Source: Lineus longissimus | Taxonomy: Eukaryota; Nemertea; Pilidiophora; Heteronemertea; Lineidae | Assembly (NCBI RefSeq): GCF_910592395.1 | Contig: NC_088315.1 | Location: forward strand, 20,254,219 to 20,318,218 | Direction of reading: 5' to 3' | Length of the DNA stretch: 64,000 nucleotides | Part shown: positions 1 through 57,280 of the stretch, piece by piece | How the letters are laid out: the number at the start of each line of letters is the position of its first letter | Position numbering within the stretch: the first letter of the stretch is position 1 | Program-made: the position numbers and the translations under genes | The notes under the pieces: generated by a model | What the model saw: only the letters and a program-made list of their open reading frames with translations | The model's database searches: none | Told to the model about the DNA's origin: nothing

Positions 1-259
1 CATCATATTCATGCAATTGGTTGTCCTAATGTCAAAGTACAGATGTACGGAGTTTGAACAAGCTGAACTGCATGCACAAAACCAGAGCACCCCATGCGGC
101 AATAGTAAGAAATTCAAACGACCGAAAGGTCCTTCTGAATACGACCTGAAACATGATAGATCTTCAATGCTTCGATGCGCTTGATTTCACAAACCAGCAA
201 GCCACAGGACGATGCGGACAGTCTCTGAGAATTATTGAAGAGAAAAAAATCAAAATGTT

Positions 260-329
260 CTCCAGGGATTCGAACCCGGGAACTCGGGGTCATATTATGA
301 ACGCTCTAACCGTCTGAGCTAGGGGGGCT
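260..329 (-). repeat. tRNA-like Pol III promoter unit in left foldback arm
   Basis: On the minus strand there is an A-box-like TAGCTCAGACGG followed by a canonical B box, GGTTCGAATCC. The acceptor ends (GCCCCCC and a 3' end near TGGAGAA) do not pair and the anticodon arm is poor, so this is a tRNA-derived repeat module rather than a working tRNA gene. Confidence 0.6.
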
Positions 330-612
330 TTCTTGTGAAATTCTGCCAGCATATAAATCTAATATGAATGGCGATTATGCTTTAGTTTGAGAGATGAGCC
401 AGAACTTCATGTAATAGAAGAAGATACCAAGACAAAGGTGAACATTGCTGGGAGAAAACGTAGACTCCGCATACATAATCACGCACAGCAAAGAAAAAAT
501 GACTTTCTTCCTGCAGTTGCCCACTGGAAGCCGCTCAAAGATATTGAAAAAAGATTACACACAAATGTTTGCACATTCTATAAACGCGTATAAAACCACC
601 AGCGTTTCAAGC

Positions 613-687
613 AGCCCAATGGCCTTGAGGATAAGAGTGTTGGCAAATAAAGCCAGAGGTTTCGAGTTCGAGTCCCGATAAGAGGAC
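613..687 (+). repeat. tRNA-like unit in right foldback arm
   Basis: The A-box-like TGGCCTTGAGGATAAGAG is followed by the B-box-like GAGTTCGAGTCCC and then a T-run near 690. It is a different tRNA-like sequence from the left arm. It is probably a Pol III-derived repeat module, not a tRNA gene. Confidence 0.45.
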
Positions 688-979
688 CTTTTTTTTTTCT
701 TACTTCCAGAATTCTCTGCGAAGGTCCGCATCGTCCTGTGGCTTGCTGGTTTTTGAAATCAAGCGCATCGAAGCATTGGAGGTCTATCATGTTTCAGGCC
801 GTATTCAGAAGGGCCTTTCGGTTGTTTGAATTTCTTACTATTGCCGCATGGCGTGCTCTGGTTTTGTGCATGCAGTTCAGCTTAATAAAAGGGACAATAT
901 TGGTGTATACCGTAGCTTGGCAAGTTAAAGTTAGCTTTCTAAGACGCCAAATGTCGCCCCTTCCAGCAAACCAATTTCA

Positions 980-1020
980 GAGACAAGGCCACAATTGATT
1001 TTTTAAGCCTTTTAGCAGTT
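980..1020 (+). mobile_element. Truncated end of the GAGACAAGACCAC MITE
   Basis: The sequence starts GAGACAAGGCCACAATTG and matches the first 41 bp of the MITE complete at 62,051-62,486. It stops abruptly at ACCTTTTGTTCAC, which is also found at about 30,927 and 56,711. The breakpoint therefore marks the left limit of unit A's homology with units B and 3. Confidence 0.65.
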
Positions 1021-2519
1021 ACCTTTTGTTCACTATCAAGAGCCTGGAAAGGCGTGAAAGAATCTAGGGTCGAAAACAAATCAATTCTCTCCTGATTATA
1101 CAAAGTGTAGAAAAACACTGAATGACTATTGCATAATGACTATTGCATAATTACTAGTAATAAATACCCATCTTTGTGTGCTACATTGAGCAGGCCTCAT
1201 TACCCGACACAATGACACCTGCTGACAGTGGATTTGAGTATTCTATAGCCACCCAAACTGCAGCGCCTATCCACTAAGATCTCTATGTGAAAGTAGACAA
1301 TATAAATTTCATTAGTAAAATATTTTGATTCGCGAAAATATTCTGCCGCGAATATATCCATCTTTCGGCATTCGCGAAAATTTTATGCCGCGAAAATTTT
1401 CCGTTCTACAGTAATCAACTACCCGAGGGGAACTCGAGACTGCTAACATTTATCAATGGAAGCTTATTTCAGCCTTAGGTTTCCACCAGGCCGTTCAAAA
1501 CTCCCAGTTAAAAACCGCGCTCACAGGAAATTGGATAAAAGAATAATGAATGGTCTCCACTTATCAACGGTATGTTCCGCTGAAATCAAGGCGGAACCAT
1601 ACCGTTTTTTCTAGTAAGCCCATCAAAGAAGGCCTGTAAGCATGTGAGATACAAACGAAGATGCCGAGATTGCTGAAGTGGACTGGGAGGGAAAAGAAAC
1701 AATTGATGAGCGACTGCAACAACCTGAGCATTTCTGTGTGTCTTCTCAGTGTGGAAAAACACTGTTGTTGCTCGAATTTTACTTCGGAGTTCCGTACCGT
1801 TTTTCTTCCCGACCTGCCCTCCCAGGCCCAGCTCCTATGGACCTGGTATACGAAAGCGATAGCATTGGCATTGAGGCGTCAGGTATATACGCCCATCACG
1901 TAAATGATATGAAGAGGCTTCGGGACGTGTTTATTAATTTTTTCATTGTAAAAGCCATCATTCCTAAGGTTCTTCATTCGATTGGTTGCCGTTAAAACAG
2001 TATCATATAACTGATTCAGACACACTCGACTGTAACGTAGCATTGATTTATATGCATTATATAATACCAAACATTGAATGTTTAACAAGCTATTGGTGAG
2101 ATAGCACTCAGTTCTAATTTTGAATATAGGGGGCTTTTGTTATTTGATTAGCCTTGATTCTTTCGAGGTTGAACTTATCTCACTGCTTCTGCGTGAATTA
2201 GTTCATCAAGACAGCGTTTTACAAAAGATTTGGCACTGGGCCTCATCGAGGTTCTTATCTTGCTCTGTGCGACATAAAGATCTCGCGGCGCGTTTGCAGG
2301 TCAACTTGTAATCGCCTGGTGAAGTACCGGTCCAATCAAGTGATAAAAGTCGCATGTGCTTGTTGATATAGTGCTATGGTACTATCTCCTAGCAGGTGCC
2401 AAATATTATGTCATTGCAATTCTCTGCATATGAAGATGCTTCAACTCTGCATCTTCCGAGAATGGACTGCATTATATTGTTTAAATATTTTGATTTCCAG
2501 CTCCTGAGATCTGTCCAGA
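1021..2519 (+). other. Upstream region of ankyrin-cGLR gene A
   Basis: This region aligns with 30,927-32,395 and, for its first about 570 bp, with 56,711-57,260. It contains a hairpin-prone stretch at about 1,325-1,405 built from repeated TTCGCGAAAAT and CCGCGAAAATTTT motifs. No convincing TATA box or start site was identified. An in-frame TGA at 2,505-2,507 precedes the ATG at 2,520, which supports that start for an unspliced reading frame. Pyrimidine-rich AG acceptors (near 1,612 and 2,500) leave open the possibility of upstream 5' exons. Confidence 0.5.
1657..1995 (+). other. Possible 5' exon or decayed ORF upstream of gene A
   Basis: An open frame starts near EDAEIAEVDWEG and ends at a TAA at 1,993. 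It also stays open in unit B, ending at 31,871. Between units I count about three silent and four replacement differences, which does not show coding constraint. A potential donor (CAG|GTATAT) lies near 1,880. I recognise no domain. It may be a non-coding leader that is open only because the duplication is young. Confidence 0.15.
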
Positions 2520-5500
2520 ATGCCAGCCACATGGCCTCAACTTGCTCTGATCAATGCAGCAGCATTCGGTTATTATTGGAGAGTCAGATTCCTTCTCTGG
2601 ACTGGAGTAGACGTGAATTGCAAAGATGATGAAGAGTACATGTTTACTCCAATCATCTGCGCCGCTCGTAATGGGCACCAAGAGGTGGTGGATCTGTTGA
2701 TTAAAGCGGGGGCGAATATAGAATGTAAAGACAATGACGGGGATACTCCAATCATCATCGCCTCGATTAAAGGACACCAAGAGGTGGTGAATCTATTGAT
2801 TCAAGCGGGGGCGAATATAGAATGTAAAAACAATAACGGGTATACTCCAATCATCAGCGCCTCGATTAAAGGACACCAAGAGGTGGTGGATCTGTTGATT
2901 AAAGCGGGGGCGAATATAGAATGTAAAGACAATGGCGGGAATACTCCAATCATCATCGCCTCGACTAATGGACACCAAGAGGTGGTGGATCTGTTGATTA
3001 AAGCGGGGGCGAATATAGAATGTAAAGGCAATGACGGGGATACTCCAATCATCATCGCCTCGATTGAAGGACACCAAGAGGTGGTGGATCTGTTGATTAA
3101 AGCGGGGGCGAATATAGAATGTAAAGACAATGGCGAAAATACTCCAATCATCATCGCCTCGACTAAAGGAGACCAAGAGGTGGTGGATCTGTTGATTAAA
3201 GCGGGGGCGAATATAGAATGTGAAGACAATGGCGAAAATACTCCAATCATCTGCGCCTCGATTAATGGACACCAAGAGGTGGTGGATCTGTTGATTAAAG
3301 CGGGGGCGAATATAGAATGTAAAGACAATGGCGAAAATACTCCAATCATCTGCGCCTCGATTAATGGACACCAAGAGGTGGTGGATCTATTGATTAAAGC
3401 GGGGGCGAATATAGAATGTGAAGACAATGTCGGGAATACTCCAATCATCATCGCCTCGATTAATGGACACCAAGAGGTGGTGGATCTGTTGATTAAAGCG
3501 GGGGCGAATATAGAATGTAAAAACAATAACGGGGATACTCAAATCATCATCGCCTCGATTAAAGGACACCAAGAGGTGGTGGATCTGTTGATTAAAGCGG
3601 GGGCGAATATAGAATGTAAAGACAATGACGGGGATACTCCAATCATCTTCGCCTCGATTAATGGACACCAAGAGGTGGTGAATCTGTTGATTAAAGCGGG
3701 GGCGAATATAGAATGTAAAGACAATGGCGAAAATACTCCAATCATCTGCGCCTCGATTAAAGGACACCAAGAGGTGGTGGATCTGTTGATTAAAGCGGGG
3801 GCGGATATAGAATGTAAAGACAATGGCGAAAATACTCCAATCATCTGCGCCTCGATTAATGGACACCAAGAGGTGGTGAATCTATTGATTAAAGCGGGGG
3901 CGAATATAGAATGTAAAAACAATAACGGGGATACTCCAATCATCATCGCCTCGATTAAAGGACACCAAGAGGTGGTGGATCTATTGATTAAAGCGGGGGC
4001 GAATATAGAATGTAAAAACAATAACGGGGATACTCCAATCATCATCGCCTCGATTAAAGGACACCAAGAGGTGGTGGATCTGTTGATTAAAGCGGGGGCG
4101 GATATAGAACATGTCAACGATCAGGGAAGAACTCCGTTAGGGTGTGTTTCGATAGAAGGACACCAAGAGGTGGTGAATCTATTGATTAAAGCGGGGGCGA
4201 ATATAGAATGTAAAGACAATAACGGGAATACTCCAATAATCATCGCCTCGATTAAAGGACACCAAGAGGTGGTGGATCTGTTGATTAAAGCGGGGGCGAA
4301 TATAGAATGTAAAGACAATGGCGAAAATACTCCAATCATCATCGCCTCGACTAAAGGAGACCAAGAGGTGGTGGATCTGTTGATTAAAGCGGGGGCGAAT
4401 ATAGAATGTGAAGACAATGGCGAAAATACTCCAATCATCTGCGCCTCGATTAATGGACACCAAGAGGTGGTGGATCTGTTGATTAAAGCGGGGGCGAATA
4501 TAGAATGTAAAGACAATGGCGAAAATACTCCAATCATCTGCGCCTCGATTAATGGACACCAAGAGGTGGTGGATCTATTGATTAAAGCGGGGGCGAATAT
4601 AGAATGTGAAGACAATAACGGGAATACTCCAATCATCATCGCCTCGATTAAAGGATACCAAGAGGTGGTGGATCTATTGATTAAAGCGGGGGCGAATATA
4701 GAATGTGAAGACAATAACGGGAATACTCCAATCATCAGCGCCTCGATTAAAGGACACCAAGAGGTGGTGGATCTATTGATTAAAGCGGGGGCGAATATAG
4801 AATGTAAAGACAATGGCGAAAATACTCCAATCATCATCGCCTCGACTAAAGGAGACCAAGAGGTGGTGGATCTATTGATTAAAGCGGGGGCGAATATAGA
4901 ATGTAAAGACAATGGCGAAAATACTCCAATCATCTGCGCCTCGACTAATGGACACCAAGAGGTGGTGGATCTATTGATTAAAGCGGGGGCGAATATAGAA
5001 TGTAAAGACAATGGCGAAAATACTCCAATCATCATCGCCTCGAGTGAAGGATACCAAGAGGTGGTGGATCTGTTGATTAAAGCGGGGGCGAATATAGAAT
5101 GTAAAGACAATGGCGGGAATACTCCAATCATCATCGCCTCGACTAATGGACACCAAGAGGTGGTGGATCTGTTGATTAAAGCGGGGGCGAATATAGAATG
5201 TAAAGACAATGGCGGGAATACTCCAATCATCATCGCCTCGATTAATGGACACCAAGAGGTGGTGGATCTGTTGATTAAAGCGGGGGCGAATATAGAATGT
5301 AAAGACAATGGCGAAAATACTCCAATCATCTGCGCCTCGATTAATGGACACCAAGAGGTGGTGGATCTGTTGATTAAAGCGGGGGCGAATATAGAATGTA
5401 AAGACAATGGCGAAAATACTCCAATCATCATCGCCTCGACTAAAGGACACCAAGAGGTGGTGGATCTGTTGATTAAAGCGGGGGCGAATATAGAATGTAA

Positions 5501-8102
5501 AGACAATGGCGAAAATACTCCAATCATCTGCGCCTCGATTAATGGACACCAAGAGGTGGTGGATCTGTTGATTAAAGCGGGGGCGAATATAGAATGTGAA
5601 GACAATAACGGGAATACTCCAATCATCATCGCCTCGACTAAAGGACACCAAGAGGTGGTGGATCTGTTGATTAAAGCGGGGGCGAATATAGAATGTAAAG
5701 ACAATGGCGAAAATACTCCAATCATCTGCGCCTCGATTAATGGACACCAAGAGGTGGTGGATCTGTTGATTAAAGCGGGGGCGAATATAGAATGTGAAGA
5801 CAATGGCGAAAATACTCCAATCATCATCGCCTCGACTAATGGACACCAAGAGGTGGTGGATCTGTTGATTAAAGCGGGGGCGAATATAGAATGTAAAGAC
5901 AATGGCGAAAATACTCCAATCATCATCGCCTCGACTAAAGGACACCAAGAGGTGGTGGATCTGTTGATTAAAGCGGGGGCGAATATAGAATGTAAAGACA
6001 ATGGCGAAAATACTCCAATCATCTGCGCCTCGACTAATGGACACCAAGAGGTGGTGGATCTATTGATTAAAGCGGGGGCGAATATAGAATGTGAAGACAA
6101 TGACGGGGGTACTCCAATCATCATCGCCTCGACTGAAGGACATAAGGATGTGGTGGATCTTTTAATTAAAGGGGATGCTATCATTGAACACAGTAACCAT
6201 CAAAACGACACTCCAATAGTTTGTGCAGCTAAATGGGGTAATGTTGAAATTGTAGACCTTTTGTTGGAAAAAGGTGCTTGTTCCAAAAGTTCTAGTTATG
6301 GATCGATATTAAATATCGGTGCGAAATTTGGAAGACGACGGGTCGTTGAATATCTTCTGAGACGCGAGATGTCCTCAGAAAGCCGTGACTTGGAAGGAAA
6401 TACCCCATTGCAAAATGCAATCGTAAACGGTCATCTCTCAGTGGTCCAACTCCTAATAAATAGTGGAGCAAATACATCCACATTGAACCTTACTTCAGAG
6501 AATATTATGTATTCTGCTGCTTCGTATGGCCATGCCGATATCGTGAAATACTTGGGAAGCAGAGATACACGGAAGTTATTGGATTTGCACAATGCCAGTG
6601 GGTGGTCTCCTATTGCCAAGGCAGTTTCAGGTGGTCATTTTCGGACAGTTAGACAACTTCATCAGCTTGGAGCTGACATCAACTGCAGTGTAGATGGAAA
6701 ACGACTACTTCAACTAGCAGCTGAGTCCGGTTGCCTAGATATCTATCAATATCTCATCATCGCTGGGCTTGACTGCAAACGACCCAACATCCATGGATTG
6801 AGGGCTTACGAATGCTTCCCCTTTCAATCAAAAGTTGATTATCAAGCATGCAATCGATTAGGACATTCCTCCGAACAAGGTCTCTCTTGCGTCATGTCGG
6901 GATTAAATGGCCAAGATGCTACACTCCAGTATAAACACAAACTATCAGAACTATCATGTGTACCGGGACTAGGCAGAGTGAATATTATCGAGGGTGGTGT
7001 TTCAGAAACTGTCATGAAGTTTGTAAAAGAGGAGGAGGTTTTTAAGGATTTAGAGTTATGCGGAAGTTCGGCTGAGGGCACGAAGGTTCAGCTGCCTGAC
7101 GAAATGGATTTCCTTAGATTAACATCTTCCGATCATCTCTCTCGAAACGAAGTGGTTGACACCTTACATGGGTATAAGTATTTACAAACTGAAACAATTA
7201 AGAAGAGGTTTTTATCAAGTAAAGCACTCCATGAGGGTGTAAGCAAAATCGTAGAATTCAGAGCAAAAGCCAAAGAGTCTAAAAAAAGTGGAGAAATCCT
7301 TTCGCAGGCAGTTGCTGGAGGAGGCAGTGCCAGTGTTCCTGTGACTATCAGATGGCCCGATGATAAACCTTCAAAAATAAAATTTGGAAATATATCATCC
7401 AGTCTCCTTGTCTCTGTGGACATAGTACCGATATTGCATGTTGATGATTGGCCAGACGATGCTATCAAGAAGACCTGGAAGATGGACGAGGACACCTTGA
7501 GGAAGAGTGGGTATAGGCTGGTCCTGAAACCGCCACACAAGGACAGTGAGTACGGACGGTTGCTACCCGAGGAAGACAGAGAAAGAATGTTGCGGATCTC
7601 CTTCTCTCATCTAGAACCTGCTACAATCAAACCTTTGGCTCCAAGAATCAAAGACGCCTACATCACAGCAAAGTGTCTGAGGTCGCCTATGGCATGTGGC
7701 GTTGTGATTAGAGACACGGACGGCGTCATACATTTCGTCAGTCACTTCCTTACGAGCTACCTCCTGAAGACAGTCTTCCTCCATAACATAGACGACTTCC
7801 TTGAGACAAACAGGAGCCTGCCAGAGATGGTCTACATCATCTACAGCCAACTTGAGGAGTACCTTGGCAAGGGCAACCTACCGTTCTACTGGCAGCCGAG
7901 CGTCAATCTGCTGGAAGGCTTGAAACTCAACATAGCCAAGTCTCATCAAGTCGCCAAGCTGATGACGGCAACCGTTGGTAGGATGTCCCGCCTGGAGCGT
8001 GGTGGAGAGAACCATGGTGACGACGCGAGGGAAGATGGGCCAGGCATTGAAGCTACTGATGACGAGCCGGACATAGGATGTTACATCGTCAGATTAGAAT
8101 AG
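2520..8102 (+). CDS. Giant ankyrin-repeat / Mab-21 (cGAS-like receptor) fusion protein, paralogue A
   Basis: A single uninterrupted 1,860-codon frame. Residues about 10-50 form a divergent first ankyrin repeat. Residues 52-1206 are 35 exact 33-residue modules of the type GHQEVVDLLIKAGANIEC. About seven degenerate ankyrin repeats follow, to about residue 1,430. The C-terminus (about 1,490-1,830) is a Mab-21/cGAS-like nucleotidyltransferase. It has the GS motif at G1515-S1516 in the context CGSSAEGTK, metal-binding acids E1528 and D1530 (DEMDF), and a third acid D1634 (VSVDIVP). It also has the Mab-21 signatures RISFSHLE (about 1692) and FLTSYLLKT (about 1743). The intact triad suggests an active enzyme; in the family such enzymes make cyclic-nucleotide signals after ligand binding. 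The vertebrate cGAS zinc motif is not evident. No signal peptide or membrane segment is seen, so a cytosolic location is likely. The ATG follows an in-frame stop at 2,505. The domain call is strong; the ligand and product are unknown. Confidence 0.9.
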   Translation: MPATWPQLALINAAAFGYYWRVRFLLWTGVDVNCKDDEEYMFTPIICAARNGHQEVVDLLIKAGANIECKDNDGDTPIIIASIKGHQEVVNLLIQAGANIECKNNNGYTPIISASIKGHQEVVDLLIKAGANIECKDNGGNTPIIIASTNGHQEVVDLLIKAGANIECKGNDGDTPIIIASIEGHQEVVDLLIKAGANIECKDNGENTPIIIASTKGDQEVVDLLIKAGANIECEDNGENTPIICASINGHQEVVDLLIKAGANIECKDNGENTPIICASINGHQEVVDLLIKAGANIECEDNVGNTPIIIASINGHQEVVDLLIKAGANIECKNNNGDTQIIIASIKGHQEVVDLLIKAGANIECKDNDGDTPIIFASINGHQEVVNLLIKAGANIECKDNGENTPIICASIKGHQEVVDLLIKAGADIECKDNGENTPIICASINGHQEVVNLLIKAGANIECKNNNGDTPIIIASIKGHQEVVDLLIKAGANIECKNNNGDTPIIIASIKGHQEVVDLLIKAGADIEHVNDQGRTPLGCVSIEGHQEVVNLLIKAGANIECKDNNGNTPIIIASIKGHQEVVDLLIKAGANIECKDNGENTPIIIASTKGDQEVVDLLIKAGANIECEDNGENTPIICASINGHQEVVDLLIKAGANIECKDNGENTPIICASINGHQEVVDLLIKAGANIECEDNNGNTPIIIASIKGYQEVVDLLIKAGANIECEDNNGNTPIISASIKGHQEVVDLLIKAGANIECKDNGENTPIIIASTKGDQEVVDLLIKAGANIECKDNGENTPIICASTNGHQEVVDLLIKAGANIECKDNGENTPIIIASSEGYQEVVDLLIKAGANIECKDNGGNTPIIIASTNGHQEVVDLLIKAGANIECKDNGGNTPIIIASINGHQEVVDLLIKAGANIECKDNGENTPIICASINGHQEVVDLLIKAGANIECKDNGENTPIIIASTKGHQEVVDLLIKAGANIECKDNGENTPIICASINGHQEVVDLLIKAGANIECEDNNGNTPIIIASTKGHQEVVDLLIKAGANIECKDNGENTPIICASINGHQEVVDLLIKAGANIECEDNGENTPIIIASTNGHQEVVDLLIKAGANIECKDNGENTPIIIASTKGHQEVVDLLIKAGANIECKDNGENTPIICASTNGHQEVVDLLIKAGANIECEDNDGGTPIIIASTEGHKDVVDLLIKGDAIIEHSNHQNDTPIVCAAKWGNVEIVDLLLEKGACSKSSSYGSILNIGAKFGRRRVVEYLLRREMSSESRDLEGNTPLQNAIVNGHLSVVQLLINSGANTSTLNLTSENIMYSAASYGHADIVKYLGSRDTRKLLDLHNASGWSPIAKAVSGGHFRTVRQLHQLGADINCSVDGKRLLQLAAESGCLDIYQYLIIAGLDCKRPNIHGLRAYECFPFQSKVDYQACNRLGHSSEQGLSCVMSGLNGQDATLQYKHKLSELSCVPGLGRVNIIEGGVSETVMKFVKEEEVFKDLELCGSSAEGTKVQLPDEMDFLRLTSSDHLSRNEVVDTLHGYKYLQTETIKKRFLSSKALHEGVSKIVEFRAKAKESKKSGEILSQAVAGGGSASVPVTIRWPDDKPSKIKFGNISSSLLVSVDIVPILHVDDWPDDAIKKTWKMDEDTLRKSGYRLVLKPPHKDSEYGRLLPEEDRERMLRISFSHLEPATIKPLAPRIKDAYITAKCLRSPMACGVVIRDTDGVIHFVSHFLTSYLLKTVFLHNIDDFLETNRSLPEMVYIIYSQLEEYLGKGNLPFYWQPSVNLLEGLKLNIAKSHQVAKLMTATVGRMSRLERGGENHGDDAREDGPGIEATDDEPDIGCYIVRLE
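2673..6137 (+). repeat. Ankyrin module array A: 35 tandem 99-bp units
   Basis: The first GGG-CAC-CAA codons are at 2,673 and the final module (GHKDVVD) starts at 6,138, exactly 35 x 99 bp apart with no indel. Modules are near-identical. Differences cluster in about ten codons: module positions 2, 19-24, 29, 32 and 33, giving variants such as KDNDGD, KDNGEN, EDNGEN and NNNGD, IIIAS or IICAS, and K/N/E at the end. One module (about 4,108-4,160) is the distinct EHVNDQGRTPLG type that is common in gene B. Confidence 0.95.
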
Positions 8103-10767
8103 CGAGCAAGGTAACTCTCTGGGTCAATCATAATGAAGATAATTAGCTTCAAACATAATAATTCACTCATCTTCTCGTACATTGTATGCTGCGAGTTGTC
8201 GTATATTATAGCAGGAAAGAGATTATCCTGATGATGGATCCTCTAGAATTCATTACAAGTTATAATCTAATATTTTGTTGACCTTGAATTTAATGTCATG
8301 CTTGAACTTTATCATAGTCTCGTTATGAGAGTTCCATTGCGTTAGTTACGCTAACTACAGCAAGTACGTATACATGTGAAGACCATATATGTAAAAAACT
8401 TGATTGCAGCACGGCGTAGAAAGAATTCTTTTTAATACTGGTCTGTTATTACAGTGAAAAACGCCCAACTAATTAAAAAATGTATACCCATTGTTTCGAT
8501 AAGAATGTTTGTGGCGTACAATCCACCTAGTAATAGAATGTTTTCACGGCCAGTCATTTTGGAGGGAGGAAGAATGATTTGACTTGCCTGACTTAGCTGA
8601 ATCAAATACTGTCACATGGTCCTTGGGCTTGCTTTCTGTTGTCTGTCCCTCCAGCATGCAAGAAATATACAACCTGCCTGCATTGAGTAATCGCTTTCAA
8701 AAGTACAATGTGCCTGATATCAATACATTAATTTCCAGTATTTCCATATTCATCCCGAAGAACACCTGGTATGCAAGACGGATGCCCCGGTGTAACCACA
8801 TCTATGGTTATTTCCAGGCCACACCCAGCCCGGCCAGTTTAAACCATGACAGTGCATGTGTACGAGTTGGGCCGACGCGACAGGCGCAGCGGTCGGAAGC
8901 GGGTCTCTGGCGGGATATCTTGGACTTTGGTTCGACCACGAAAGCCTCAAGTTCGTCAGGACCTTCAAAGCCAAGTGATAGGGAGTTCGTTCTTGAGATG
9001 ACACGGGGATGAAAATAGCAGCTATATTGACTTCAAGAGAGAGAATGGTGAGGGGTCGTGTAGTGTACAAAGGAAAATAAGCATTGTAAAATTTTAGAAA
9101 ACTTCTGATATTTTTCAGACCCCCCCCGCGATCCTCTCACACTTCCCCGATATTCAGATATGCAATTGCAGAATTGCAGATTTTCCCAGTTTGGGAACAC
9201 ACATCGGTGATGATGTCCAAAAGTTCACCACTTCTGAAAAAAAGACATTTTTGATTTTGGTAAGAATGGATCCTTCCCCTAATTTAAGATGATTTCTGAA
9301 ATTTTACAGTCCATTTTGTGCACCTACAATTCCTAGGAAGAACGAGATTTGGGAGTTTCTCGTTTGTTTTTTGGGGTCGCGGTAGGGTGAGAGGAAGTTG
9401 ATACAAATCAAATGTTGATAATTTCCTGCAGACTTATCATGTCATGTAGTGTTTAAAATACTGGCAACAACTTTGATATTCAATCGATTCTGATATCTTT
9501 AATTCAGTCAACATTTGCATTGACACTTTTCCTTTGACCCGATCTCGATCCCAGATTGCCGAAAAGGCAGCCCCATTCTGTAAAATATTTAGGAGAGCGT
9601 GGATAAGTTCTGGACGCCACGCACGCTTTACAATTAATTGTGATGGAGGACTTTTGATTCCTGTCCTACCAGTAGGCAGAAGACATTTTGACATTTTGAC
9701 ATTTTAAGAGACATTTTGACATTTTACATGTAAGTGATATTTTGACATACTTTAGACTCACCGTTCTAAGACTGGCCAGTTTATTAATTTGAGGCAGGAT
9801 ATGGGTATCCAATCAAAGAAAAAATTATGCTATTCGTACACAGTTTCGCTGATGCCGAACTAATCATGGTGATGACTTTTGCAGTTGTTTAGGCAGGCAG
9901 CAGTGATAACAGCGTATTATGTGATCACCCGCCACCCCTTCCATTTGCCAGATCAACTGCGAATTCAACAACCAAAATTAGTTATGCATGAGCGATATCG
10001 CGTACAAATGAAATAATTTTGTCTTAATTTTGGTTTATGACCGCCCCCAGTATAATATGATTAAGCAGGCCAAGGTCCCTTCATCCTGATTGGCTCAAAC
10101 ATGTCCGTCTTCAGGTTATGGTTGGTCGATTGTGTGTGGTTGGCTTTTGGAATGAACTAATCACTTGCGACCTAACCACTCTATACTTCGATCAGTGGTT
10201 TTAAATGGTCAATCGATTTCCCTGTCTTATAGCCTATGTCTATTGGCAACGAATCTTCAATGAACGAAATCGTATTGATGTTAAAGTACAATCCTTATGG
10301 GCCTATACCATTCTCAACTCTTAACTATGGTATTGATGAAAAGGCGACACATAGGTATTGTTTACCCCGATAGAACATTAGGGAGTTTACGAAAATCCCC
10401 CAAAACACCCACGTGAACGTCTTTTTCATGGTTCGACCTCCTTTAACGATGTCGAACAATGGGATAGGCGTTCACGTTGACGTTTCGGGGCGTTTGCGAA
10501 AACTCCCTACTGTTAAATGGCATCGAACGACGAAGCGCATAATATCAATGGCGGCTTGGCTTACATATTCAGAAACGGTCTTATATCGGTGAATCTAGAG
10601 TATGTAATAGGGAGTTTGATATTTGGGCCTTATCACGGATACTTGTACGTAGACGGATGGAAATGTACACAAAATTAGGCCTGTTTCTTCAGAGTTTTAT
10701 CAATATACGTAAAGATCCTGTATCAGGAGCTGTTCTCAAACTCCCTAACAAAATAGGAAGTTCATTA
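8103..10767 (+). other. 3' flank of gene A, no supported gene
   Basis: This aligns closely with 39,176-42,136. A weak ATTAAA polyadenylation-like hexamer lies at 8,472. A 142-codon open frame at 8,584-9,012 is also open in unit B but resembles no family, and its frame is not convincingly constrained. A short GACATTTT tandem repeat lies near 9,690-9,740. Opposed CCTAACAAAATAGG/CTCCCTAA-type motifs occur around 10,380-10,760, just before the minisatellite. Confidence 0.5.
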
Positions 10768-11742
10768 TATGTGTGGGTTATACCCTTTAATAATGTTCAC
10801 TACCTGAGTGAACACTGGTGTTATATTATATGTGTGGGTTATACCCTTTAATAATGTTCACTACCTGAGTGAACACTGGTGTTATATTATATGTGTGGGT
10901 TATACCCTTTAATAATGTTCACTACCTGAGTGAACACTGGTGTTATATTATATGTGTGGGTTATACCCTTTAATAATGTTCATTACCTGAGTGAACACTG
11001 GTGTTATATTATATGTGTGGGTTATACCCTTTAATAATGTTCACTACCTGAGTGAACACTGGTGTTATATTATATGTGTAGGTTATACTCTTTAATAATG
11101 TTCACTACCTGAGTGAACACTGGTGTTATATTATATGTGTGGGTTATACCCTTTAATAATGTTCACTACCTGAGTGAACACTGGTGTTATATTATATGTG
11201 TGGGTTATACCCTTTAATAATGTTCACTACCTGAGTGAACACTGGTGTTATATTATATGTGTGGGTTATACCCTTTAATAATGTTCACTACCTGAGTGAA
11301 CACTGGTGTTATATTATATGTGTGGGTTATACCCTTTAATAATGTTCACTACCTGAGTGAACACTGGTGTTATATTATATGTGTGGGTTATACCCTTTAA
11401 TAATGTTCACTACCTGAGTGAACACTGGTGTTATATTATATGTGTGGGTTATACCCTTTGATAATGTTCACTACCTGTGTGAACACTGGTGTTATATCAT
11501 ATGTGTGGGTTATACCCTTTAATAATGTTCACTACCTGAGTGAACACTGGTGTTATATCATATGTGTGGGTTATACCCTTTAATAATGTTCACTACCTGA
11601 GTGAACACTGGTGTTATATCATATGTGTGGGTTATACCCTTTAATAATGTTCACTACCTGAGTGAACACTGGTGTTATATCATATGTGTGGGTTATACCC
11701 TTTGATAATGTTCACTACCTGAGTGAACACTGGTGTTATATT
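10768..11742 (+). repeat. 61-bp minisatellite, 16 copies
   Basis: A head-to-tail array of a 61-bp unit starting TATGTGTGGGTTATACCC. Each unit contains the hairpin GTTCACTACCTGAGTGAAC (7-bp stem, 5-nt loop). The 975-bp length equals 16 units with very few substitutions. The orthologous array in unit B (42,137-42,684) has 9 units. Confidence 0.95.
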
Positions 11743-13377
11743 GACTTGTATTCACATCAACATGTATTAACTTTGTGTCCAGTTTTATATATCGTACTCG
11801 TATTATGTATAACTTGACTCGTTTGTGTATTGTTATGAATGTATATTGTATTGACATGTATTAACTTCTGTATTAGGTATAAGGTACTCCTCACAGCTTT
11901 GGGTGTGTCCAAATATTCTGTGGTAGAAGGCAGAAGGCCTTGAGACTGCAAGCTGTTTGAAGCCAGTCTATTATATCATACTGTTGTATTACAAGAGAGT
12001 CAAATTCATTATTATTTATGTTTCGTGTAGAAACATTTAAGTAGAGAGTGTAGCCAGATAGGCCCTGTCACATGGATGTGACAAATTCTAAGTGTCGAGG
12101 TGATTACGGTTTTGTGTACTCTTGTGATGGCTTCATTGGAGATTTTCTGCAAACTTGTGGAAATTGATGGAAATAGATGAATTGTACTCGTTAAGGTGAA
12201 ACTATAGTATTTCCAGTTTGCCAATCTAAGAAATATATAAGAACTTATCCACAATCCACAAAATGTGACCCGTCACAGCAAAAGCAGGCGCATGTCGCTC
12301 TGAGCTTGGCAGGTTGAGACGGACTGTTTGTTCATTTCTCTATTGTCTGCCTTTTGTGAAATATGAGCACATCAATTTCTTCCATTATCTCCTGGAGTCA
12401 TTTAGGCTCATCTTCTGTGCGACATGCGCCTGGTTTTGCTGTGACGGGTCACAAATGGTAAAAGTGTTAGTGGTAGGACATAGTCTGCATTGCTTCCGAA
12501 CAATAGGTATTATGAACAAAGGCTAGCAAATGCTTTCAGTTCAATTTTGAAGTGAAAGGCTTTGTGTAAATGTACATAGAGTTTTAGATAAAACGTTTGC
12601 TAGTCTTGTTCATATCACCCAACGTCTTGTCTAGTTTATGAGTTTGAAAGAGTTCTGGTGGCATTTTACATGTATATAGAGTTGGACTATAGTTTCACCA
12701 TCCAGCTTCAGCTACACCGTTTTTTAACAATCGTTTTGGCGTCTTTTTAGATTTCAAACTATTATGAGTTTCTCTCTAACGTTGTTGTTTATATTGAATC
12801 CGCCTCTAACGACTGATCATAAAATTCTGTTTTATTTAAGCGATATATATTTAGCAATATAATGTACTGTTACGATATTTGCTGAAGTGCCGTGCTATTA
12901 CCTTAGATTATGATTACGTGAATTTGGGAGCGCATGCGCATCAAGTTTTGGACTTATCATTATGTGTTTCGATCAAATCTTAGTCGTTTTACTCAAAGAC
13001 TTTACTGAAATATATAATGCACTAAAGTATTCAAACATGTTAAAGTTACCTGACTGTTCGAAGTGTGACGGTACTGTATTAATATCCTTACGATGGTAAT
13101 ATCAATTACTTGGCATTGCAGTTGTTAATCTGAAACTGATTAATCAGTGAACAGTCTGTCGAGGGAGTATCAATAGATCACCTTGTCATTTAGTATCATG
13201 TCTTCCAAAGGCAAGGGTTTAAGGTAAAGGCTGGGTAATGTGTGGCCGTGAGACCGGTTATAGATCTGGTGCGTTCGGGTGGCAAAGGTGCTCAACAGTG
13301 GCAAGAGTGGTTGTAACAGGGCCGACCAAAGATAGGTGTGGATTATTATTAAATTTACCTTAGCAATATTTCAGTTC
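11743..13377 (+). other. Non-coding flank with one MITE insertion
   Basis: Shared with 42,685-44,124 apart from the 190-bp element at 12,264-12,453. AT-rich, with no convincing gene on either strand. Confidence 0.5.
12264..12453. mobile_element. 190-bp MITE with TGTGACCCGTCACAG termini
   Basis: The termini are inverted repeats: TGTGACCCGTCACAGC at the left and GCTGTGACGGGTCACA at the right. The similarity continues into GCAGGCGCATGTCGC and its complement. Unit B has the uninterrupted sequence CACAAAATGGTAAAAG at 43,198-43,213, an empty site that fixes the ends and implies an AA target duplication. Relatives lie at 55,149-55,317 and 63,716-63,884. Confidence 0.85.
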
Positions 13378-13792
13378 GAGACAAGACCACCATTGAATAT
13401 TAATAGTTTGGAAGATCCCGACCTATGTTTTAACAGTCAAGTCCACATTTGCAGAGGTATTCAAGAGATACTTGCTTTAAGTGAGGAAGTTATCTTTTGA
13501 AAAACAATGTTTTTATAATATTTGCTAATTTGGTAAGAGGGGGCGTTTAAGTTTTCTGCAAGTTGGCCGAAACAGCCGGGTTCAGTATAAACCGACTATA
13601 AATCTTGTCCGATTATCTGAAAAATCCCGTGGACAACGACCACTTTAAATTTCAATAGTTACTCGCCAGACTGTCCGGGAGTCATATCCAAGTTAATGAT
13701 TCAAAACCGCACGTACTTATTGATGCGACGCGGTCAAACTTTGGAAAATGAACTGATGAAAGTCTTTAACAAATCAATGGTGGTTTTGCCTC
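13378..13792 (-). mobile_element. Old, diverged copy of the GAGACAAGACCAC MITE
   Basis: Starts GAGACAAGACCACCATTGA and ends near GGTGGTTTTGCCTC. The internal sequence matches the consensus copy at 62,051-62,486 in reverse but is clearly more diverged. It is present at the same place in unit B (44,125-44,539), so it predates the duplication. Confidence 0.75.
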
Positions 13793-15456
13793 GTTGGACG
13801 AACACGTCCTTCAGTTCTCACCTCCTATTCTAGGTGGCGCTGTCTACCCGTCTCAAAAACATGCGACAGGCGACATTTCAAAAACGAAAGTTCTCATTTT
13901 ACTGTGTGTTTCTGAACGGAAGTCAGTTGCGGTAATATTTTATAGTTCGGCTAATTAAAGCCATTATATGTGTACATGTAATCATGTACAATTTCGCAAC
14001 TCATTTTGATTACAATTCGGAAATGCACAGATGGGGGGAGATTTTGCTTGTAAATGGAATGTCAATAAGACTCTAAATGTGGTCGGTCGTTTTATGTCCT
14101 TTGGTATAGAGTCATCCTAACCGGTGTAGAAGTAGAAAATGTCCGAGGGAAAAACTGTCCACTTTATTGTATTTTGTCAGATTACGGTATTATGGTTCTT
14201 TAGATGACATTACCGTCAATAGGTAAGGGATTAAAGTGCATAATAGAATCCCTTGTTTCCCCGGACATTCTATCCTGGGACATTTCAAACTTCTACACCG
14301 ACTCATTGTCAACACTCGCGTCTCGATACGAGGGCGGTTCGGGCGCGGGGGGGGGGGGGTCTCAGAAGTTACTATATATTTGATACTCTCTGTAGTCGAT
14401 GTGAGCCATAGAGGCTGTAGCACCTGCTTAGATATCATTCGTGTTTATTGTTGCTTTTGTGCTGTTTTGCGGTAATTTAAGATTAATTAATTATCATGCT
14501 GTATGTATACGTGATTGGCGGGATTTGCAACACTTACCAACTGTACGAAGTAAACATTATGAAAGTTGTATTTTATCGACGGCGACTTTGAGGAGTTTGC
14601 TGAGTCCTTGTACTAACTAAGTGTGAAAGCCCATTTACGAGTGTCCCGTAAATGGATTCGCCCTGGACTTGATACCGCTACGTAGAGACCTTCGTATCTT
14701 GTATTTTGTTGCTCATTGCGAAACCTCCCTATTATTTCAATAATTAGATTATAGCCTGAGGCAAGAAAATGACAAATGTTGTTGTCCGAGTTCGATATAT
14801 ATGTAGAGCTATAGTAATTAACAGAGACTGCGGGACACTGTAACTGAGGACGAAGCCTTTGAATGAACATGGACGATCGATGCTCATGTCTCGAAGTAAG
14901 GACTGGACAAGTGAGGCAAGGATATCCGTTTTGGAAATTGCACTAGATCCCCCCCCCCCCACCCCAAACCCGCCCCCCCCCCCCAAACGCCTCGATTCGA
15001 ATATGCAGGAGATACCATGGCGTAGCTGAATCACTTCGTCCGTCCACTGTTGACGGAGCGAATTAGGAAGTCACCATTGAAACTAACAAGAACATGAGCA
15101 GATGCAAGGACCCCAGATGAGGTAGACACGATTGACGTCGTCGAATCGGTTGGTGTAATGGGGAAAATAGCTCAGTCGGGCTACAAGTCGCCCTTTGCTT
15201 TGGGTATCTTTGCTTGACCGCGGACAGATATCCGGCTGATGTGATCTGGTTTGAACGGACCACTAGCAGATGTCTCTTTGACGAGGAGTTGGTCTTTATA
15301 GTGTGGACCTCGTCCTTCTGATGAAACCTAGTGGTTGTCGTTGGCTGTGACCTGGGACAACTCCAAGGTTGTGACAATGTCATCCTGTCCCGGGCAATGC
15401 CCGTGTCTAAGATCTAAGGGTTGTTTTGACACTTCTATACAGTTCTATAGAACCTG
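13793..15456. other. Non-coding flank with homopolymer G and C tracts
   Basis: Includes a G tract at about 14,346-14,359 and two C tracts at about 14,949-14,986, whose lengths differ in unit B (45,080-45,098 and 45,690-45,742). On the minus strand between about 15,040 and 15,390 one frame reads like decayed coding sequence with several stops; I could not assign it. No intact gene was recognised. Confidence 0.4.
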
Positions 15457-15915
15457 CTAGCGCAGAGCCAGCGAAAATTCCGACCACATCGGAATCCCCC
15501 TTCCTGTGCCACTTGGATGGGCGATAAAAATAACATAACGAAATTTGAGACAGTTCAGATGCAACCAGCTGTCCCGGTACGAGTGTCCGACTGAGAAAGC
15601 CTCTTCCAGACCCTGGCCCATCCCTACATTGCTTGATATCAGAAAACACTCACTGTTCGGGAGAAAAAAAATATGGTCATGCGTAGACGCCGTACAAAAT
15701 ACAACATGAATTCCTTTGTTGTTTTGTTTTATCGTATTAGCCAAAACAGGACCGGATGCCCTGTCAGCAAAATGTCCGTCACTTCCTGGTGTAATGATGA
15801 CCCTACCGGATGTGTCAGCCAGCATCTCAAAGCGAGGTGAAGGGCTCATTGCCTCTCTATTCAACAACAGACCATTGTATATTTCAGTCATTTCCTGACA
15901 ACGCTTTCTTGTCAT
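15457..15915 (-). CDS. Hypothetical protein or last exon, 152 codons, conserved between units
   Basis: A minus-strand frame begins MTRKRCQEMTEIYNG immediately after a splice-acceptor-like TTTCTTCAG and runs to a TAG at 15,457. I recognise no domain. The copy at 46,212-46,670 has the same length. Of six substitutions between them I count four silent (GGC/GGA, ACA/ACG, CTG/CTC, CCT/CCC) and two replacements, both V to D. That leans toward constraint, but six events are too few to be sure. It could be a terminal exon of a minus-strand gene. Decayed coding-like sequence continues downstream on the same strand (15,040-15,390). Confidence 0.3.
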   Translation of the reverse strand: MTRKRCQEMTEIYNGLLLNREAMSPSPRFEMLADTSGRVIITPGSDGHFADRASGPVLANTIKQNNKGIHVVFCTASTHDHIFFLPNSECFLISSNVGMGQGLEEAFSVGHSYRDSWLHLNCLKFRYVIFIAHPSGTGRGIPMWSEFSLALR

Positions 15916-18424
15916 CTGAAGAAAGCAGCGTAGCTTTGTAGGGATTTCTTCTGCGGAAATAATGTAACCTTAATATCCCGTGTTGTATTTTGCTCGTCAG
16001 TAGAGTGAATGGAGTTGCCAATATGATGACGGTAATCTTGACCTATGTTATCTGTTTTGTAAAAGGATCTTGGAGAGCAGGAGAGCAAGCTATTACGCGA
16101 TAAGGGAAGAAGCGATATCATTGTTGGATTACACGGATGGCTATTGGCCTTTGTAGAAGACTTGCACTTTCATCTGTTCAAAGTTTACTCCACCGTTCAA
16201 AAGAAATTTGAAAATGAGACTGAATTTGAAAGTTTACAGTTATGATTATATTCAAATATGTACTCAACATAAATGTCACATTGCCGTTGTCTAGATGATA
16301 ACTGAACTGTGGCAATATCTATATCTATTTAGCTGAGCGATGATATGACACGATGAACCTATGGAAATGTTAGTACTATGTCTTCAGAACAAAGGGTTGA
16401 ATCCATTGAGAAAGAAGTTATGTATACAATGTCAAAATGCACTGGTGATTTCGCGGCCCGTAACGACGATAACCGGCGTGACGTATCCGGCGGTCACCAC
16501 CTGTGGTACACGTACTACCAGCCTCGCCCCAATCCCCCTCCGCTTATTCCTGACACAATGTTGGATTGTAGCTGCGTTTCCCGGATCGATCGACCACCAA
16601 AATATCAAGAGATATCGCAGGGAGGCGCCTGGACTTGCCAGGCTGATGTACTATGTCTAAAGCCTTGATCTAATCAAAGCTGTGGGCGGTCGCCTCATTC
16701 TAATTGCTCGCCTGGTTTCCACTACCTTTGATAACTCCGATTGGATTCATGTCACCCATCAGTACACGAACTACTCCTTCAGCCGATTCCACCTCGGCGC
16801 GCAAGATGTTGCCGGGAGAATGGTAATTTTGGTGACTGATAAAACCCAGAACGAGATCATCGAAACAAAACGAAATGGTACAATGAAACCTAACACGTGA
16901 GAGACCCACCAGAAGAAAAGAAGACCCGTTGAAGCAGCAAGGCCTTCAGCCTTATCAACTATACCAACTTCCAACTTTGATGTAGGAATTCGGTGAAATT
17001 TGGAGAGGTAAATTTTCATTTCGATGATTTGGATAATTTCATTCATTTCGACGTTTCGTTTCGTTTCAATCCGTTAGTCATCAGTACCGGTGGGGTTCAT
17101 CAGTGCGCATGAATGCCTGCTTTTGTTTCTGCGTCTGTTCTGCAGAATATGATTAAGAGAAGCTTTTGCCTATGACAGAAAACAGCCATCCGGTCATTGA
17201 CAAACTGAATATTAACCAGGCGTTCCCAATATCCAATCTGATTGTTCTCAATCTAGCTTATTGATGCTTCGAAAGTGTTTTTCATGTCGTTCTGGCAAAA
17301 TGTACTCAGTTGACTTCAGGAATGTGACCAGATCACATTTACCTAAAGATAGTGGTTGCACAACACTAGATTATCCTGAGGTCAGCAGCCAATGAAAATT
17401 GCTTCACCATCATTTCCCCGACCAATGAGAAAGCTGTGAGATGTATTATCCCATCGACACGTCAGGTTTGTGACATTCTTCGATATAGAATGAGAGTTGA
17501 TATCAATGCCTGTCAAATGTTAGCCCAATACCGCTACGCTAGTCGTCCTTTTGGGGAGGAAGTATTGGTCTAGGGCCTACGTGAGGTCCAAGTTTGGCAC
17601 ACGGTATGATATGTATGTGAGATATTAACTGTAGGTTGTGGTTCATAGTTTGTGTTTTAACAATGCTGCCACGCAACATATCAACCGAGGATTTGGTATT
17701 GACGATCATCTATTGTGAATGCAGGTCACCATGTTCAGCCAACTATGGCATCGTCTCAGACACATTGTGTACTGCTTTGCATGTTATTTAGTTCACGAAT
17801 ATGAAAGCCTGCCTGATATACATAAATGCACCCACTCCGGGTGTAATGCTAGTGATGAGAAGGCCCGACGTATTGCATGATATCAAAATTCTTATCTAAA
17901 TCAAAGTATTGTGAGGCCTTGTTTTGAAAATTCATGAAATCGACTGGATTATTCAGTCCCGCACTTTGGTAAGGAATCGACTTAGGTGCGTTGTTAGATA
18001 GATAATCATTTGGTTATCCGACAAGCGCTATTTCGATTTATAATTAGGACAGGGTTGACACATTCATTTCAAAGTTGACACAAGTCGCATCATATTTGCC
18101 GAATTTCTAATGACTTCTGTGTGCTGCTAATGCTGCTATTCCTTGTCTCACTGGACTGCATAAAGTAACTGGCTTCGGGATAAAAGTTCGGGTGGACACG
18201 TTTAGAGGATTTAGTTACCAGTTTGTACCGTTTCATTCAAGATTTCGGAGACAGCTCGTGTGAGGCCGTATTTCATCAACGGAACCTTCAGGAAGTAAAC
18301 GAGTTTCGACCTCATTAGCATTTTAATGATGCATTTCGATGTTGATACTGAGTATGCCAATAAGATCTCTGCGAATCCACAGGCAAAAGAATATCCGTCC
18401 ACGGATAGTGACGGGGATTAATCA
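15916..18424. other. Non-coding flank, no supported gene
   Basis: Aligns with 46,671-49,106. Overlapping open frames around 16,361-17,046 exist on both strands. Differences between the units there include indels in one frame and only replacements in another, so they do not behave as genes. About 90 bp at 17,597-17,690 is missing from unit B (junction at about 48,361). Confidence 0.45.
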
Positions 18425-19432
18425 TGAACGTTCCATCAATCATGGGCCATCCATGGATAGTGGATGGAGAATCTCCATCAGCTATCCATGGCTGGGCCTC
18501 CCTGGATGGAACGTCCATGGGCCATCCATGGATAGCTGATGGAGAATCTCCATCAGCTATCCATGGCTAAGCCTCCGTGGATGGAACGTCCATGGGCCAT
18601 CCATGGATAGCTGATGGAGAATCTCCATCAGCTATCCATGGCTAAGCCTCCGTGGATGGAACGTCCATGGGCCATCCATGGATAGTGGATGGAGAATCTC
18701 CATCAACTATCCATGGCTGGGCCTCCGTGGATGGAACGTCCATGGGCCATCCATGGATAGTTGATGGAGAATCTCCATCAGCTATCCATGGCTGGGCCTC
18801 CCTGGATGGAACATCCATGGGCCATCCATGGATAGTTGATGGAGAATCTCCATCAGCTACCCATGGCTGGGCCTCCGTGGATGGAACGTCCATGGGCCAT
18901 CCATGGATAGTTGATGGAGAATCTCCATCAGCTATCCATGGCTGGGCCCCCGTGGATGGAACGTCCATGGGCCGTCCATGGATAGTTGATGGAGAATCTC
19001 CATCAACTACCCATGGCTGGGCCTCCGTGGATGGAACGTCCATGGGCCATCCATGGATAGTTGATGGAGAATCTCCATCAGCTATCCATGGCTAAGCCTC
19101 CGTGGATGGAACGTCCATGGGCCATCCATGGATAGCTGATGGAGAATCTCCATCAGCTATCCATGGCTAAGCCTCCGTGGATGGAACGTCCATGGGCCAT
19201 CCATGGATAGCTGATGGAGAATCTCCATCAGCTATCCATGGCTGGGCCTCCGTGGATGGAACGTCCATGGGCCATCCATGGATAGTTGATGGAGAATCTC
19301 CATCAGCTATCCATGGCTAAGCCTCCGTGGATGGAACATCCATGGGCCATCCATGGATAGTTGATGGAGAATCTCCATCAGCTACCCATGGCTGGGCCTC
19401 CGTGGATGGAACGTCCATGGGCCGTCAACTAT
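18425..19432 (+). repeat. 75-bp palindromic minisatellite, about 13 copies
   Basis: The period is exactly 75 bp; for example CCATGGATAG recurs at 18,601, 18,676 and 18,751. Each unit contains a near-perfect 41-bp palindrome, in which CCATGGATAGCTGATGGAGA is followed by its complement. A second short palindrome surrounds GGACGTTCC-type sequence. Long open frames on both strands follow from the 75-bp (25-codon) periodicity. Unit B has about one unit left, at 49,107-49,162. Confidence 0.95.
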
Positions 19433-20900
19433 CCGAGGACGGACACTTTTGCCTGTCGACGATCCAGCCGACGGAAAGACTAACCTTGGAATCTGATATT
19501 TGTGTGGTTGACTCTTTGAACCCTGAGCTCCCTGGTGGTAGGGGGTCCCCCACCCTAAGCTCCTGGGGGTAATTTTGGGTATCAAATAGAAATTTTAAAA
19601 GAGTTGGAAGAGGTAACTAAAAGTAAACTGTACTGTATTTATCCATCCTACCGCTTTTACATAGAATAAAGCTTTATTTCTGAATATTATAGCATTTATT
19701 TTATTTTTATTTTTCCCGAGTGTCTTTTTCAGCACCCCTGAGCACCCCCCGCCGGGCACCCTTCTTGAAAAAAATGAAAAGAATAAAACTATTATAGCTA
19801 TAGACATGGAACATATCTTCTCGCCTGGCGCTTCTTTTTTTACTTGATACTAAGCTTTATAGGGGATATTTGGTTGGGTATTTTTTATTTATGTACTGAA
19901 GTTCATGAAAAAAGCTCAATTTTCTGAGTTTTTTGCCGTTTTCAGAACTCAAATCCATCTAGAGGATATGACAAAAAGCCGAATGAACTAGAATCTGCAG
20001 GGGACGAATCTTAGGGTTAGGTCAGATAGAACGGCGCCGCTGATTGGCTGCAATTGAACAAGGAAGTAGCATAGTAAAAAAGGGGATTCCCCGGCCGGTA
20101 GACGCTTCTTGTTTGCGGCACCAAAACCGGGCGCCCGGGTTCTAGCCGTTTTCCCTTTAAAACCTTTCTACATGCTCATAACATTTTTCGAGACGTACAC
20201 CGGGAGGAACGCTTTCAGAGGCAAAATATACCTATCCTAGCCTGTCAAACCATGAAATTTTCATTGCACTTTATGCATGATAATTTCAGGGTTTGGGGGG
20301 TCTGAAGTTAGGGAGGTGATTTTTGACGGCTTTTAACCTGTGAGTCAGCTTTTTCACCACGACGGGTTGAATGGAGCCTCAAAACCACGTAAGTAAGCCA
20401 ATTTGACTGAAACTTCATCATTTTCTTCATTTTAAACACACCTTATTCTCAATTTAAGAAAAATTATGTCTTAAATGGAAAATACCATTCAACTGGTATG
20501 GTGAGACCACGCATTGATCTCAAACTGAACTATTTTCGTGCTGATTGGTTTAATACAGGTGCGTGACCTAGTAGGCACCTGGACTGCGGAAAGGTAGACA
20601 CATTAAAATGTGTCTATCTTTCCGCATGGTTGAATCAAAAAACCTATAAGACTACTTTCTCCTACACAGATGCTGTCACTGGAACGATACGGATTGCCTT
20701 GAGCACGATCGAGGACTCAAATACGATCAGAAGGTATTTAATATTGTTCTGGTTACTTTACCCATTAGAAAACCTTACGTATTATTCCCAATCAAACAAT
20801 TACTTTCGAGGCCGAAACTTTTGAGGAATACATTTCTACTATGTCATATTCATGCAATTGGTTGTCCTAATGTCAAAGTACAGATGTACGGAGTTTGAAC
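19433..20900. other. Non-coding flank to the end of unit A
   Basis: Aligns with 49,163-49,740 and then, after MITE insertions in B, with 50,136-50,226 and 50,567-51,321. It also aligns from about 20,125 with 59,517-61,122 in unit 3. A short palindrome, GACACATTAAAATGTGTC, lies near 20,597. No gene is supported. Confidence 0.5.
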
Positions 20901-21202
20901 AAGCTGAACTGCATGCACAAAACCAGAGCATCCCATGCGGCAATAGTAAGAAATTCAAACGATCGAAAGGTCCTTCTGAATACGGCCTGAAACATGATAG
21001 ACCTGTAATGCTTCGATGCGCTTGATTTCACAAACCAGCAAGCCACAGGACGATGCGGACAGTCTCGGAGAATTATTGAAGAGAAAAATATCAAAATCTT
21101 CTCCAGGGATTCGAACCCGGGAACTCGGGCTCAGAATACGAACGCCCTAACCGTCTGAGCTAGGGGGGCTTTCTTGTGAAATGCTGCCAGCAAATACTCT
21201 AG
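20901..21202. repeat. Foldback element copy 2, left arm
   Basis: Matches 60-350 including the minus-strand tRNA-like box at 21,100-21,170. The element continues on the far side of a large insertion at 29,798-30,122. Homology to the intact copies stops after GCCAGCAAATA at about 21,202. Confidence 0.8.
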
Positions 21203-29405: not shown

Positions 29406-29450
29406 CGTAAATCCGTGGCGTTACGTTGTAATCCACTTCCAGTATTTCAA

Positions 29451-57260: not shown

Positions 57261-57280
57261 TCAAATTCCTTATCGTCTTA

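Follow-up and report, generated by a model that had tools for sequence, protein, structure and literature searches.

Ankyrin repeats have been described on animal enzymes of the cGAS-like type. Some animal cGLRs contain ankyrin modules, regarded as possible protein-interaction modules, and three cGLRs of S. pistillata have additional ligand-interacting domains, ankyrins and death domains among them (Li et al., 2023, preprint PMC9980059). According to the sections of that preprint consulted here, a more positive character is predicted for cGLRs that sense nucleic acids (Fig. 2D legend), and many cGLRs of animals seem to lack activity in vitro, probably because the right ligand was missing; nucleotide messenger synthesis by Mab21L1-related proteins is described there as not understood (PMC9980059). 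To judge from those sections, the joining of ankyrins to a Mab-21/cGAS-like nucleotidyltransferase (NTase) is already described and is not new. A second described system is an oyster protein in which, according to the excerpt available, a Mab-21-like domain is joined to HEPN, Ig, DED, TRADD-N and TPR domains (PMC8195603).

The window analyzed here, 64,000 nucleotides of Lineus longissimus DNA (NC_088315.1, 20,254,219–20,318,218), contains two genes of this general kind, designated copy A and copy B. Both share with the ankyrin-containing cGLRs of PMC9980059 the fusion of ankyrin repeats to a Mab-21/cGAS-like NTase, but they display a homogeneous array of 36–46 modules, an arrangement as a tandem pair and variation at the level of the module, features that go unmentioned in the consulted sections of that source. 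The oyster protein resembles them in having interaction partners and differs in the identity of those domains; an ankyrin array is unmentioned in the excerpt available. A limited literature search returned no published title or abstract on a homogeneous, rebuilt array attached to such an enzyme, which is a weak negative. Copy A is laid out as follows.

2490–2500, plus strand: acceptor-like splice site ttgatttccag, read by eye
2520–8102, plus strand: copy A, ankyrin array and Mab-21 nucleotidyltransferase, a single open frame of 1860 aa
2631–6194, plus strand: array of 36 in-register 33-aa modules, residues 38–1225 (TRF and in-register count)
6195–6809, plus strand: degenerate C-terminal ankyrin region, about residues 1226–1430 (Pfam; boundary approximate)
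6867–7994, plus strand: Mab-21 NTase domain, about residues 1450–1825 (Pfam and profile matches; boundaries approximate)
7062–7067, plus strand: GS motif, residues 1515–1516
7101–7109, plus strand: ExD, E1528 to D1530
7419–7421, plus strand: third acid, D1634 (SVDIVP), aligned to cGLR1 8gjw
7743–7925, plus strand: Mab-21_C (PF20266) match, residues 1742–1802 (Pfam)

From the N- to the C-terminus, copy A comprises a short unique segment, the ankyrin array, the degenerate ankyrins and the Mab-21 domain. TRF counts 35.6 copies of a 99-bp unit (2645–6171), and 36 modules stand in register, the first and the last being imperfect. Many Ank families match the protein in Pfam, and the Ank profile matches together with the 33-aa register identify the modules as ankyrin repeats. 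The sequence-only reading had reported 35 near-identical ankyrin modules and a C-terminal NTase in one frame. That reading holds with the count raised by one; GS, E1528, D1530 and D1634 lie exactly where it placed them, and the RISFSHLE and FLTSYLLKT signatures it named are present. Pfam rows for EPSP synthase, a response regulator, DUF3093 and YfmQ were inflated by the repeats, no single stretch passing on its own, and were discarded. Antisense frames run through the array, the longest being a minus-strand ORF of 687 aa (4121–6184); they were set aside on judgement as probable by-products of the repeat.

The 5′ end of copy A shows an in-frame stop at 2505, after which 2520 is the first in-frame ATG. 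As the acceptor-like site ends at 2500, just upstream of that stop, 2520 is a plausible start and the gene plausibly has a single large coding exon; the site would fit a 5′ untranslated exon further upstream. Another acceptor-like site, tctgtccag, ends at 2518 (by eye) and, if used, would make an upstream coding exon possible. Downstream of the array about 640 non-repetitive codons are open, for which the chance under uniform codon usage is 4.5e-14. Together with the same open layout in a paralogue 30 kb away and in other Lineus proteins, this places the frame beyond chance. The paralogue, copy B, and the duplication that contains both genes go beyond the account given by the sequence-only reading.

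32396–39175, plus strand: copy B, paralogue of copy A, 2259 aa (ORF list, Pfam)
32507–37060, plus strand: array of 46 in-register modules, residues 38–1555 (TRF and in-register count)
37928–37975, plus strand: GS (1845) to ExD (1858–1860)
38243–38449, plus strand: 69-aa segment between ExD and the third Asp (ends approximate)
38492–38494, plus strand: third acid, D2033
1020–20004: segmental duplication unit A, interrupted (self-comparison); a weaker 86% match goes on at 20100–21196
30926–49742: segmental duplication unit B, interrupted (self-comparison); a weaker 86% match goes on at 50567–51578

Self-comparison of the window shows that units A and B form a tandem segmental duplication. Gaps apart, the upstream flanks of the two genes are 97.1% identical (1467 positions); on the downstream side identity is 98.7% in the adjacent flank (2392) and 98.4% beyond it (5119). 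The coding parts are 95.9% identical before the array (121 positions) and 97.3% (1201) and 96.7% (703) after it. The coding parts are thus not better conserved than the upstream flank and are less conserved than the downstream flanks. The post-array region has accumulated 40 nonsynonymous and 20 synonymous changes between the copies (omega 0.61). Omega is 0.18 for the stretch running from the third acid to the C-terminus (9 nonsynonymous, 14 synonymous), whereas it is 1.77 in the C-terminal ankyrins (11 and 2), 1.60 in the linker (16 and 3) and 1.23 at the start of the NTase (4 and 1), the last three values resting on small counts.

The duplication units contain further repeats. A 61-bp satellite with 98% matches is present in both units at different copy number (10764–11742, 16 copies; 42133–42684, 9 copies), and a 75-bp satellite of 13 copies is found in unit A (18441–19423) but not at the matching site of unit B, at about 49112. 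Between the units lie a transposase ORF (21667–22719) matching HTH_Tnp_Tc5 and DDE_1, which continues in frame beyond a stop, over 22720–23022, and a minus-strand stretch (25867–29420) with DUF1759 and DUF1758 matches in pieces and integrase-like frames by eye, a putative BEL/Pao-like retroelement. Beyond unit B, 54343–54603 consists of 22-bp repeats with a palindromic CCACCGCGGTGG core. The stretches at 56614–57264 and 61066–62092 are partial copies, respectively, of the 5′ flank (91% to 1017–1589 and 30832–31465) and of window positions 3–1021 (97%); the ORF list shows no array-size ORF at either.

Three relatives were recovered among 4473 candidates in a protein homologue search covering lengths of 0.55 to 1.75 times that of the query. 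Two are Lineus longissimus proteins named 'ankyrin repeat domain-containing protein 50-like': P0004, which matches 67% of the NTase query at 83% identity, and P0005, which matches 60% of it at 81%. They have the layout of copies A and B and the 69-aa segment of copy B, but differ in carrying 14 and 15 modules (by a looser regular expression), another N-terminus and a name that is silent on the NTase. The third, P0006, an ankyrin protein from a JGI source, is 34% identical over 97% of the NTase query. It resembles copy A in its ankyrins, a similar junction and the GS, ExD and third D at a spacing of 104; it differs in lacking a homogeneous 33-aa array (one match to the regular expression) and in scoring below the cut-off for Mab-21_C (21.0 versus 24.1 bits). 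Ankyrins precede the NTase in all three relatives and the ankyrin–NTase junction is recognizably conserved in P0006, which makes an assembly accident an unlikely origin of the fusion. Scans of viral contigs, prokaryote genome contigs and phages found no relative, which says little as these are non-animal collections.

The 69-aa segment is present in copy B, P0004 and P0005 and missing from copy A and P0006. Part of it repeats sequence found around the third acid (ASVPVTIR ... VDDWPDDW in copy B) and so is an internal duplicate. Since copy A is closer to copy B (94% identity) than to P0004 (86%), the simplest scenario has the segment arising first and copy A losing it afterwards; gene conversion is a possible alternative.

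The C-terminal domain belongs to the Mab-21 family. Both copies score 31.2 bits against Mab-21_C (PF20266), above the curated cut-off of 24.1 (2.5e-7 in copy A). The sequence-only reading had proposed a profile search for Ank and PF03281. The Ank families and PF20266 bear out the family assignment, but PF03281 itself was reported for the NTase piece of copy B (29.6 versus 24.1 bits, 9e-7) and for P0006 (5e-7), and not by Pfam for copy A, whole or as its NTase piece, for whole copy B or for P0004. Single-sequence comparison of copy A matched cGLR1 8gjw (0.0024) and 7lt2 (0.0041). A profile search was initially swamped by ankyrins; an NTase-only profile of four sequences was used instead and matched 8gjw at 3.8e-7 and 7lt2 at 9e-4. 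The 8gjw profile match spans the third acid and the C-lobe, with the GS/ExD half in register but contributing −2.8 bits alone. That half is supported instead by conservation: when copy A is aligned with P0006, the 18-residue window with the highest conservation is the GS-to-ExD block, GSSAEGTKVQLPDEMDFL, where 15 of 18 residues agree, compared with 37.5% of the 405 aligned positions.

All five proteins keep the GS, the E and D of the ExD and the third D. The published cGLR motif was taken in its strict form, h[QT]GS X8-20 [DE]h[DE]h X50-90 h[DE]h (Li et al., 2023, PMC9980059), and was unmatched in the four proteins tested. In place of the motif's Gln or Thr before GS, the Lineus-type proteins have Cys and P0006 has Val, and the spacing from ExD to the third acid is 101 in copy A, 170 in copy B and 104 in P0006 against the published 50–90; the 11 residues from GS to E lie inside the published range. 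A relaxed motif that allows a spacing of up to 110 matches copy A and P0006 but not copy B and P0004. As 717 of 5000 shuffled sequences match it too, the motif alone was rejected as proof of activity. AlphaFold2 gave a mean pLDDT of 34.5 for the copy A domain, with no residue above 70, and of 43.3 for whole P0006, with residues 627–1103 all below 50. PADLOC returned no match for the domain from the window.

The pI of the NTase is 7.65 in copy A and 6.22 in copy B, values that are no surface map; the domain is predicted to be not clearly basic, unlike the tendency of nucleic-acid-sensing cGLRs. An apparently active cGAS-like (Mab-21) enzyme had been claimed from the sequence. The family domain with its GS, ExD and third D, and its fusion to ankyrins in three relatives, uphold the first part of that claim; activity is not established, given the unmatched strict motif, the not clearly basic domain and the unusably low confidence of both structure predictions for it. 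Because the strict motif is unmatched we do not file the protein as a cGLR: we place it in the Mab-21 family, as a protein whose ankyrin array is joined to an NTase and which may act in a cGLR-like manner.

The modules of the array differ from one another mainly at particular positions. Their 33-aa register aligns to designed ankyrin proteins (5lec) with no gaps within modules. Positions 2, 3, 5, 13, 14 and 33 are, we assume, those randomized in DARPin libraries. All six differ among the aligned modules of 5lec, in which 6, 18, 29 and 31 differ too. This set was adopted after the variable positions had been seen, so that the tests are not blind, but it was not fitted to them. The counts exclude the module at either end of each array, leaving 34 inner modules in copy A and 44 in copy B. 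Mean entropy at the six positions is 1.02 in copy A versus 0.22 elsewhere (permutation P 0.00035), and 1.09 versus 0.38 in copy B (P 0.007). Five of the six are among the nine positions of copy A with entropy above 0.7 (1, 3, 4, 5, 10, 13, 14, 16 and 33; P 0.0028), and five are among the 14 most variable of copy B by the same threshold (P 0.037); position 2 is nearly invariant in copy A. Beyond the six, variation is seen at 1, 4, 10 and 16 (in both copies or one) and, in copy B, at 8, 9, 11, 21, 29 and 32. The arrays share with DARPins the 33-aa register but are natural, and the likeness lies in the variable positions as read from sequence alone. The suggestion of the sequence-only reading that the ankyrin modules set the input of the protein would be compatible with this position-specific variation.

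Whether selection has shaped these positions was addressed at the codon level. Distinct nonsynonymous codons fall at the six positions in 14 of 32 cases in copy A (P 0.0007), 12 of 33 in copy B (P 0.010) and 17 of 44 when pooled (P 0.0012). At the six positions copy A has a pN/pS of 5.59, against 0.73 in the rest of the module, computed over module pairs that are not independent; the corresponding values for copy B are 1.16 and 0.74. Copy B contains a second module type (NDQGR..., 12 of 44) with many linked differences, and the 32 modules without it give 1.52 and 1.57. Synonymous codons are few, four in copy A and eight in copy B. The nonsynonymous codon excess is not significant in copy A (P 0.07 and 0.10) or copy B (P 0.40 and 0.41), nor is the enrichment of nonsynonymous over synonymous codons at the six positions (Fisher P 0.15). 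On these grounds positive selection was not accepted as a firm conclusion; the pattern alone does not amount to positive selection, since exposed positions also tolerate neutral change.

The arrays also bear marks of turnover. Modules of copy A are on average 0.909 identical in DNA (minimum 0.606, 630 pairs), and the three-module block 6–8 recurs exactly as 18–20. None of the 36 x 46 module pairs between the copies is identical in DNA; the best pair reaches 0.990, a copy A module and its closest counterpart in copy B are on average 0.958 identical, and two amino-acid module types are common to both. At the divergence of the downstream flanks, 7–10 of the 36 modules would be expected to be identical. 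At a divergence of 2.7%, nearer that of the upstream flank and the coding part, the expectation is only 2.4 of 36, and with the upstream flank at 97.1% the case for faster turnover of the array is weaker. The array is very acidic, with a charge of −99 in copy A (pI 4.47) and −64 in copy B.

We tentatively favor, at a probability of about 0.4, a reading in which the tandem pair encodes receptor-like enzymes whose acidic array recognizes a protein ligand and thereby controls nucleotide synthesis. The acidic solenoid would bind a protein, or another non-nucleic-acid ligand; binding, probably by gathering several molecules on one ligand, would turn on the NTase; and the NTase would produce a nucleotide messenger, to be read by a STING-like protein or another receptor. 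Gain, loss and shuffling of modules would adjust what the protein responds to, with the C-terminal enzymatic half kept under constraint. A protein ligand is favored because the array is very acidic and the NTase near-neutral or acidic, whereas nucleic-acid-sensing cGLRs are, in the figure legend cited above, predicted to be more positive (PMC9980059). The charges would argue weakly against nucleic acid as the ligand, and they count in the same way against a cGAS-like nucleic-acid sensor whose ankyrins serve location or assembly only. That reading draws on the likeness to family members among the cGLRs whose ligand is dsDNA or dsRNA, and we consider it improbable. Ankyrins that bind the nucleotide messenger itself, as product feedback, are a very remote prospect. 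The ankyrins of RNase L bind 2-5A, and RNase L (1wdy) is among the PDB ankyrin matches, which shows a shared ankyrin fold only; 36–46 near-identical acidic modules would be unlike one nucleotide pocket.

The chief rival to the receptor-like reading is neutral turnover of the array, about as likely as the best explanation: a coding minisatellite that grows and shrinks through unequal exchange, its exposed positions tolerating change, on an ordinary ankyrin–Mab-21 protein whose module identity is little informative. The 99-bp tandem arrays with TRF matches of 92% (copy A) and 84% (copy B), the blockwise duplication in copy A, the array lengths ranging over 36, 46 and, by the looser expression, 14 and 15 modules, and the non-significant dN>dS tests all fit it. 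The position-specific variation in both copies speaks against it, although structural tolerance could give the same pattern, as does the pN/pS contrast in copy A, with the non-independence noted above. The Mab-21 half might instead be a catalytically silent scaffold, an account that we regard as somewhat doubtful and that is not exclusive of the others. The Cys in place of Gln or Thr before GS, the long spacings of 101 and 170, the insert in copy B, P0004 and P0005 and the linker omega of 1.6 point that way; the retention of the GS and all three acids in five of five proteins, and of the GS-to-ExD block as the best conserved window against P0006, point the other way. A bolder extension of the receptor-like reading, which we think rather unlikely, is a natural counterpart of the DARPins wired to a second-messenger enzyme. 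In that case unequal exchange would rebuild the array, inside each tandem copy and perhaps from one copy to the other, with ligand-facing residues diversified, so that individuals or species would differ in the ligands they recognize and report them through a nucleotide signal.

The variable array provides a testable lead to what ankyrin–Mab-21 proteins recognize. If it changes at binding positions while the enzyme is constrained, this would point to protein ligands and provide a natural set of receptors that differ in input but share one output; if the array is a neutral minisatellite, it would make a good control for the evolution of coding repeats under structural constraint.
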